Of a stretch of DNA of 64,000 bases, positions 61,543 through 64,000 are shown piece by piece. The position numbers and the translations under genes are program-made. The notes beneath the pieces are model-generated. The model saw nothing but the letters and a program-made list of their open reading frames with translations. It had not been told where the DNA came from and ran no database searches. Each line of letters starts with the position of its first letter. The first letter of the stretch is position 1. Location of the stretch: the NCBI GenBank assembly GCA_031278895.1, contig JAITJN010000037.1:1-64000 (forward strand). The letters are read 5' to 3'. Source of the DNA: Candidatus Endomicrobiellum guadaloupense. GTDB taxonomy: Bacteria > Elusimicrobiota > Endomicrobiia > Endomicrobiales > Endomicrobiaceae.

Positions 61543-61626
61543 TGCTGAGGATGGGATTTGAACCCATACCGCCCTTTCGGGGACAGGCTTCTGAGACCTG
61601 CGTGTCTGCCATTCCACCACCTCAGC
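61543..61626 (-). tRNA. tRNA-Leu (anticodon CAG)
   Basis: Reverse complement GCTGAGGTGGTGGAATGGCAGACACGCAGGTCTCAGAAGCCTGTCCCCGAAAGGGCGGTATGGGTTCAAATCCCATCCTCAGCA. Long variable arm, loop CTCAGAA. Confidence 0.95.
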
Positions 61627-61824
61627 TCTGAATATACTTAACTGCTAGTAATTTTCATTTCAATAACATGATAATCTTCCACTTACCAGATTTGTATCTT
61701 AGGGAGCATGAAATGTTCAGTATAATACCACAAATAACTAAAATACTCCAGCATCTGTACAAGTCTAAATGTTTTGTTGATAAAGACTATCTCTTTCTTT
61801 CATGCGTTTGTCGTAGAGAAAGTT

Positions 61825-62160
61825 TTTTTTAGACTTAAAGCAACACAAACAGCGCACATAATAGGACTAAAGTGCAATACAATAAACTTGTGGGCGCAAC
61901 AAGAAGTTTAGAGAAGGGATGTATAAGCAAGAGGTAGAGGAATCTAAAGAGAAGCTAAGAGGAGAAGTAGAGCTAGATGAGAGTTATTTTTGTAGAAGTA
62001 TGATAAGAGGGTGATAGTTTAATTGAGTGAAGAAAGTTTTGGGTTGCATTTGAAAGAATGTGAAAGGAGATATAGAAGAGCATAGAGCAGATGAGGCAAG
62101 AATTAGGTATAATCTAATAAGGGGTTAGCTCTTTGCTACCTTTCTAGTTTAGAGTCGTCA
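61825..62160 (+). mobile_element. Degraded IS1595/ISXO2-type transposase remnant
   Basis: Fragments in shifted frames: 'FFRLKATQTAHIIGLKCNTINLWAQQEV*', 'REGMYKQEVEESKEKLRGEVELDESYF' (IS1595 hallmark GEVELDESYF) and 'SFGLHLKECERRYRR' (C-terminal hallmark). Confidence 0.75.
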
Positions 62161-62197
62161 TATTATACCTTATAAATTATAATAGAAAGGTTATGTC

Positions 62198-62314
62198 ATG
62201 AGAGTTAATCAAAAAATAATGAACCGTTCTTTAGATAAGAAAATAAATGTTCTTAAAGATATAGTCACGAAACAAGCTCAGATAAAAGCTTCAAAGATAT
62301 TGGAAGGTGAATAA
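62198..62314 (+). CDS. Small ORF (38 aa) upstream of cas9
   Basis: 'MRVNQKIMNRSLDKKINVLKDIVTKQAQIKASKILEGE*' preceded by GAAAGG. May be a real small protein or debris. Confidence 0.3.
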   Translation: MRVNQKIMNRSLDKKINVLKDIVTKQAQIKASKILEGE

Positions 62315-62452
62315 AGATATAGCTTTAGAAAACCAACTATGAGACACTAAAGAAATATTTGAAGACTTATTCATCCATATTTCATTTTCTTTGTCACATT
62401 GGTTCTATTTTAGTCGCTTTATATCAATTAGCAATATTTAGAGGAGTTACTT

Positions 62453-64000
62453 ATGCCAAGCAATGAATTAGTCTACTCTTTTGATTTGGGTTCCGGAAGT
62501 ATTGGTGTTTGCGTTAGGAGTGGCAAAAACATTTTACATTTAGAATCCCTATTAATTGATCCAGATTTTGCTTCAGTAAAAGAAGCATCTATGCGTAGAA
62601 GACAAATCCGTACACGCATAGCGCATAAAGAGAGAGAAGTGGTGGGACAAACAAGCAAAATTAGCAGGTATTGAAGTATTATCAACTGCCCAACCTTCAA
62701 AAGAAAATCCAAATCTTAAACCTGACAAAAGAATGTTAATAGAATTTCTACCACAAGCTTCTAAAGACAAAACAATATACTCTTCTCATTTATTAAGAAT
62801 AGCTCTTTTGCAAGGCGTAAAATTAGAAGGCTGGCAGATCTATAAAGCTATAAGATCTGCAATGCAAAGGAGAGGCTATGATGCACATCTGCCTTGGGCG
62901 CAAAGCTTAGACGAGCGAGAGAATGTAGATGCTTCAAACAGATATGGTGAAAAACTAAAAGAATTTTTCGCAAACAATCAGAAATATTATTATCCATGCT
63001 ATTACGAAGCTTTTACACAAGGTATTTGGGATCCAGAAAATCCCAAAATACTGACAACTAGGCTCGGAAAAAATCCAAATCCTGCAAGAAACAGAGGCAA
63101 CAAACCACCTGAAGACAAATGTTTCCCATCAAGACAGCATGTTGAAGAGGAATTAAGAGTTCTGCTTACAAAAGCAGCAGAATTATTTCCAAAACTTAAA
63201 GGTAAAGAAGACTTTGTTATTTATGGACCAGCAAAAGAAGCTTATGCTTCATATAATAACAAAAAATATGCTAAATACAGAGGGACTAATTGGGATTTGC
63301 AAGGATTATTAGGTCAGAAAGTACCAAGATTTGATAATAGAATTATTGCAAAGTGTTGTTTAATAGCACGTTATAATGTTTGTAAAGCAGACAAACAGGT
63401 AAATAAAGAAGTTTCTTTCTTGCTTGCTTTAAAAAATATGAGATATTCTAAAAATCATATAACAAGCATGCAGTTAAATCCACAACAAGTAAATGATATT
63501 TTTAAAAGATACACAGAATATCTTGAGATAGAGAAAAGTAAAGATGGGAATAGTGAGCAAAAAGATAAGACACTTAAAAAAAGAAAAGGCAAAGATAACC
63601 CTTTAACAAGAACTTTCTGGAAAAATTACGTAAATGACTTAGGTGGACAGGTAAACCCTGGCCAACAAGAGATATCAAAACCAAAAGATACCGGCAGAAG
63701 CAGGTTTTGTAAACCAGCATTGAATATATTGCATAGTTTAATTTTGTTTGGCAAAAATCCACATGATTATTATAAAGAACTTACTGAACAAAATAAAAAT
63801 ATTAACCCTAACAAGGGGCTAGTGAAAGAGGATTATAAATTTTTACTTAACATGCCAAATGATTGGTATTCCATAAGTATTCAAGATACAAGAGAAGATG
63901 ATAAAAAATTGTCCCGTCATGAAGCGGAAAGTAAAATAGTCGAGTATATATCAAAGATAAGCAATAGGGTAGTTCGTCATAGATTATTGATGTTGTTTAA
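62453..64000 (+). pseudogene. cas9: Cas9 (type II, probably II-C-like) N-terminal half with one frameshift; continues past window end
   Basis: RuvC-I 'LVYSFDLGSGSIGVCV', bridge helix 'ASMRRRQIRTRIAHKERE'. Frame shifts at ~62639, then an uninterrupted frame from 62640 to the window end: 'WWDKQAKLAGIEVLSTAQPSKENPNLKPDKRMLIEFLPQASKDKTIYSSHLLRIALLQGVKLEGWQIYKAIRSAMQRRGYDAHLPWAQS...ISNRVVRHRLLMLF'. This frame is absent from the ORF track because it lacks a start and runs off the edge. Confidence 0.85.

Follow-up and report, generated by a model that had tools for sequence, protein, structure and literature searches.

Related systems and the setting of the locus

As its title indicates, the study of Izawa et al. 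(2016, GBE, doi 10.1093/gbe/evw227) concerns decaying CRISPR-Cas and restriction systems in 'Ca. Endomicrobium trichonymphae'. In a survey of Endomicrobia MAGs, 11 of the 15 were called II-C and 3 I-C (PMC11257099), and Cas9d, or subtype II-D, takes in the former II-C2, a group of 900-1050 aa (PMC9755519, PMC12669027). We analyzed a 64-kb stretch of DNA (the window) from the beginning of a 99.7-kb contig, which belongs to a genome of 1.30 Mb in 66 contigs that is 94% complete; positions above 64000 follow the same contig numbering and lie beyond the window. The locus that begins with cas9 at 62453 is very probably a genuine type II (Cas9d-like) cas9-cas1-cas2-tracrRNA-array locus of an Endomicrobium relative, which would have worked throughout most of its past until a recent inactivation. 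Its cas9 and cas1 are each single-copy in the genome. The closest relatives of the cas9 gene are found in Endomicrobium MAGs, with 66% best-segment identity to L046 (Ca. Endomicrobium embiratermitis), and a search for relatives among viral contigs found none.

A minus-strand tRNA-Leu (cag) gene at 61543..61626 bounds the inserted cas island on the left; it was recognized by Rfam, which returned tRNA only, and by comparison with relatives. Beside it, on the same strand, lies the C-terminal remnant of a transporter (61650..61783, ~45 residues), which we take to be MATE-like and which is complete at the same place in relatives. Relatives without cas genes at this site carry an HD gene, tRNA-Leu(cag), in some cases a minus-strand transporter, an ABC ATPase, and an MprF-like gene. 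The position of the present cas genes between tRNA-Leu and the ABC ATPase, together with the transporter remnant, indicates that the locus is an insertion or replacement. In two further genomes (G013 and G054), the cas genes and the ABC gene are on different contigs. The gene-free stretch from tRNA-Leu to cas9 (61640-62450) holds the transporter remnant and transposase-like debris; the likeness of this debris (61820-62120) to transposases was judged by eye, and no Pfam match was found in it.

The reading frames of cas9

The 5' part of cas9 (62453..62638, plus strand) comprises 62 codons that encode RuvC-I (FDLGSGSIG) and the Arg-rich bridge helix (RRRQIRTRIAHKERE), and it matches positions 2-58 of the NCBIfam Cas9d model NF049971 (E 2e-20). 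The gene departs from this frame within the GA-rich stretch 62630-62639, and 11 off-frame codons and a TGA (62639..62674, by frame translation) close a 73-aa ORF (62453..62674) that reads MPSNELVYSFDLGSGSIG...RRRQIRTRIAHKERE before its off-frame residues. The initial annotation had described a frame with RuvC-I and bridge helix that stops at 62674 and is restored from 62640, and translation and the profile confirm both. From TGG at 62640, the shifted frame carries the remainder of cas9 (REC onwards, first in-frame ATG at 62733) and is open to 64000; the ~450 codons of the annotation agree with the 453 in the window, but they are only about half of the true length, as the frame continues on the contig to 65594 (984 codons). 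For a stop-free run of this length, log10 p is about -33 when base composition alone is considered. This second piece matches positions 60-985 of NF049971 (E 8.7e-208) and alone scores 693 bits against a curated cut-off of 375 bits, and the assignment to Cas9d is made by this profile score. Pfam gave no match for either Cas9 piece.

One model position is absent where the two pieces meet, and the coverage of positions 2-58 and then 60-985 places the join within 1-2 residues of 62638/62640. Alignment with related Cas9 proteins, which the annotation had proposed, was informative at this point. Intact relatives read HKEREKWW, HKKREEWW or HRKRENWW, and relatives thus place a single residue (K, E, N or Q) after 'RE' and before 'WW', whereas our sequence reads HKERE, followed by WW in the other frame. 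As this spacing residue is absent, a net loss of two bases in the GA/A-rich stretch 'agcgcataaagagagagaagt' (62620..62640, plus strand) fits best and would account for the one residue missing relative to the relatives; of the two changes considered earlier, a 2-nt loss or a 1-nt gain, the former is thus the better fit and the latter is disfavored. All of the Cas9 motifs (RuvC-I, bridge helix, RuvC-II, HNH, and RuvC-III) are encoded, but in two frames instead of in one polypeptide, and cas9 is here a broken gene and not a working one.

The sequence 3' of the lesion has retained all catalytic motifs. At columns that are invariant among the Elusimicrobiota relatives, private substitutions are no more frequent than in intact relatives (Cas9, 3 of 165; Cas1, 1 of 85), and third codon positions diverge most (0.46, in comparison to 0.25 and 0.17), with synonymous sites probably saturated at ~67% identity. 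This normal rate of change at conserved columns means either that the constraint ended only a short time ago or that the frameshift is spurious. Judged from the sequence, the decay looks recent, with conserved residues otherwise evolving at a normal rate.

Lesions beyond the frameshift

Cas9 carries a second, in-frame change between the RuvC-II motif and HNH, where it reads EDFVCEN-NKK and L046 reads EDFIGEKKKNEYISSQNA-NKK. This private gap of 11 residues makes the segment shorter than in all other aligned homologues that reach it, and in alignment with solved structures the segment falls in the part that runs up to HNH. Beyond the window, cas1 (65594-66514, plus strand) is intact and best fits type II models, and cas2 (66501-66857, plus strand) has an Asp to Tyr exchange. 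This D22Y exchange is private, with FYLP here and FDL in every other aligned Cas2 that reaches the position, and the replaced Asp is presumably a metal-binding residue. In E. coli, mutation of the equivalent residue is not known to prevent spacer uptake, and D22Y therefore marks decay without proving it. Both the Cas2 exchange and the 11-residue deletion in Cas9 might be tolerated.

The array is reduced to a single CRISPR repeat 3' of cas2 (66942-66977), which is accompanied by no spacer. A functional array has at least two repeats that flank a spacer, whereas one repeat was found in the locus and in the genome: its 24-nt core occurs once, with no other copy genome-wide at up to 3 mismatches, and when degenerate repeats were sought downstream of it, the score did not exceed that of shuffles. 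The arrays of relatives at the corresponding place have 3 to >44 repeats, although a multi-repeat array can be lost through mis-assembly of its repeats. The upper figure belongs to Ca. Endomicrobiellum porotermitis (L049 / L017, G013:C10), whose intact cas9 and >44 repeats constitute a large spacer record for the genus. An Endomicrobium-like cas9-cas1-cas2-array contig was also seen in a MAG titled Clostridioides sp. (L051, JAISUA010000184.1), which is probably mis-binned or mislabelled.

Between cas2 and the repeat, a tracrRNA-like region on the minus strand (~66858-66936) contains an anti-repeat, a 23-nt inverted repeat that is 91% complementary to the repeat. In comparison to L046, the region is ~25-30 nt shorter on either side of the anti-repeat, and repeat and anti-repeat show two compensatory changes and one mismatch. 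Both cas1 and the pairing of repeat and anti-repeat look maintained, which speaks against inactivation. Read on the minus strand, the repeat has at its end an extended -10-like TGTTATAAT directed at the tracrRNA. There are type II-C arrays whose repeats carry promoters, and the present repeat resembles these. By this analogy, the promoter-like end could explain why precisely the repeat at 66942-66977 stays readable, but a single readable repeat would equally be expected from a recombination that spared one repeat.

Possible causes of the probable inactivation and comparison with known systems

The frameshift could be a sequencing or assembly error at 62630-62640 in a gene that is truly intact, with the array possibly missing all the same, but we consider this unlikely. 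The intact motifs 3' of the lesion and the normal-looking constraint would be in agreement with such an error, and lone indels in dinucleotide stretches are typical errors. However, the error would have had to hit by chance the sole locus in the surveyed 76 kb that also has lesions of the array, tracrRNA, Cas2, and a deletion, and the ORF map of these 76 kb, which is not exhaustive, shows no further long gene broken by one indel. The collapse of the array, the short tracrRNA, the Cas2 Asp to Tyr exchange, and the in-frame deletion in Cas9 together make a really decaying locus likelier than a lone base-calling error.

A different fate of the remnant is conceivable, namely reuse for another purpose, in which cas1 and a tracrRNA transcribed from the repeat as its promoter would stay under constraint after the loss of Cas9 and spacers, or a Cas9 that is still made from two pieces; we hold either to be very improbable.

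We assessed the integrity of the cas9 frame at 60 related loci from Elusimicrobiota, Verrucomicrobia, Gastranaerophilales, and others. The gene is in a single frame at 56 of them, and the four interrupted ones (L050, L080, L100, and L102) break elsewhere. As no relative is broken at the bridge helix, it is very unlikely that this place holds a conserved signal for recoding or that the protein is naturally split there, which supports the order of the initial annotation, in which a recent mutation or sequencing error was favored over recoding. L050 (G023:C79, 400-510) has an independent cas9 frameshift at about codon 125 in an Endomicrobium MAG with open cas1 and cas2, and in genome G016, cas9 is a fossil with several stops. 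The long conserved open frame beyond the lesion is what programmed or slippage recoding, ribosomal or transcriptional, would need to restore full-length Cas9. Nevertheless, we give recoding hardly any credence, as the shift point has no stop codon, no long homopolymer, no poly-A or poly-T of slippage-permitting length, and no other shift-prone signal, and with the array gone there is nothing left to guide.

Equally little can be said for a natural split Cas9, in which the 73-aa RuvC-I/bridge peptide would reassemble with a 953-aa product from ATG 62733. The two open frames do adjoin, with the ATG near the start of the second, but no clear ribosome-binding site precedes this ATG ('cctgacaaaagaATG'), which falls 31 residues into conserved sequence, the break is confined to this genome, and spacers to use are absent. 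A reversible on/off switch by repeat-length change can practically be dismissed: the lesion does lie inside GAGAGAGA and two bases are the unit of such a repeat, but there are just four GA units, relatives show GAAAGAGAAAA-type sequence without a repeat tract, and the switch could not reverse the loss of spacers and tracrRNA parts.

With recent inactivation as the preferred reading, the frameshift would have arisen by slippage in the GA/A-rich stretch and the array would have been lost by recombination between outer repeats. Possible products of the broken gene would be the 73-residue peptide or, after a restart at 62733, a Cas9 that lacks both RuvC-I and the bridge helix and should neither hold a guide nor cut both strands. 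Given these defects and the loss of the spacers, CRISPR immunity is, as far as sequence can tell, most likely absent from the cell. The cause is ordinary, but the case is unusually fresh: a relative of termite-gut symbionts is losing its immune system. The locus offers a snapshot of early CRISPR loss in a symbiont lineage, with the effector broken, the memory erased, and the adaptation genes mostly remaining, and alongside intact relatives it could help to order the steps of CRISPR loss; knowledge of Cas9 itself is unaffected.

With regard to Cas9d and subtype II-D, our Cas9 passes the NF049971 cut-off, and its ~1045 aa suit the II-C2 range. The II-D adaptation module comprises cas1, cas2, and cas4 (Makarova 2025), whereas cas1 and cas2 are adjacent here and no cas4 was found beside them or elsewhere in the locus, only weak Cas4-like matches on other contigs; the promoter-like end of the repeat resembles II-C arrays. 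A second, distinct Cas9 was observed beside the Cas9d-like one in two related genomes (G013:C14 and G054:C41). With the type II systems of the Endomicrobia MAGs (PMC11257099), the locus has cas9-cas1-cas2, array, and tracrRNA in common. L046, L049 (Ca. Endomicrobiellum porotermitis), and L048 are intact homologues, and L046 and L049, in which the array was sequenced, have spacers and a cas9 in one frame, unlike the locus described here. CRISPR-Cas decay has already been published for this genus, and the present locus adds another example of it. Like the decaying systems that Izawa et al. (2016, doi 10.1093/gbe/evw227) treat in 'Ca. Endomicrobium trichonymphae', it stems from the genus or its near kin and illustrates how protist endosymbionts lose defence systems; the lesions here are a cas9 frameshift and the loss of all spacers.
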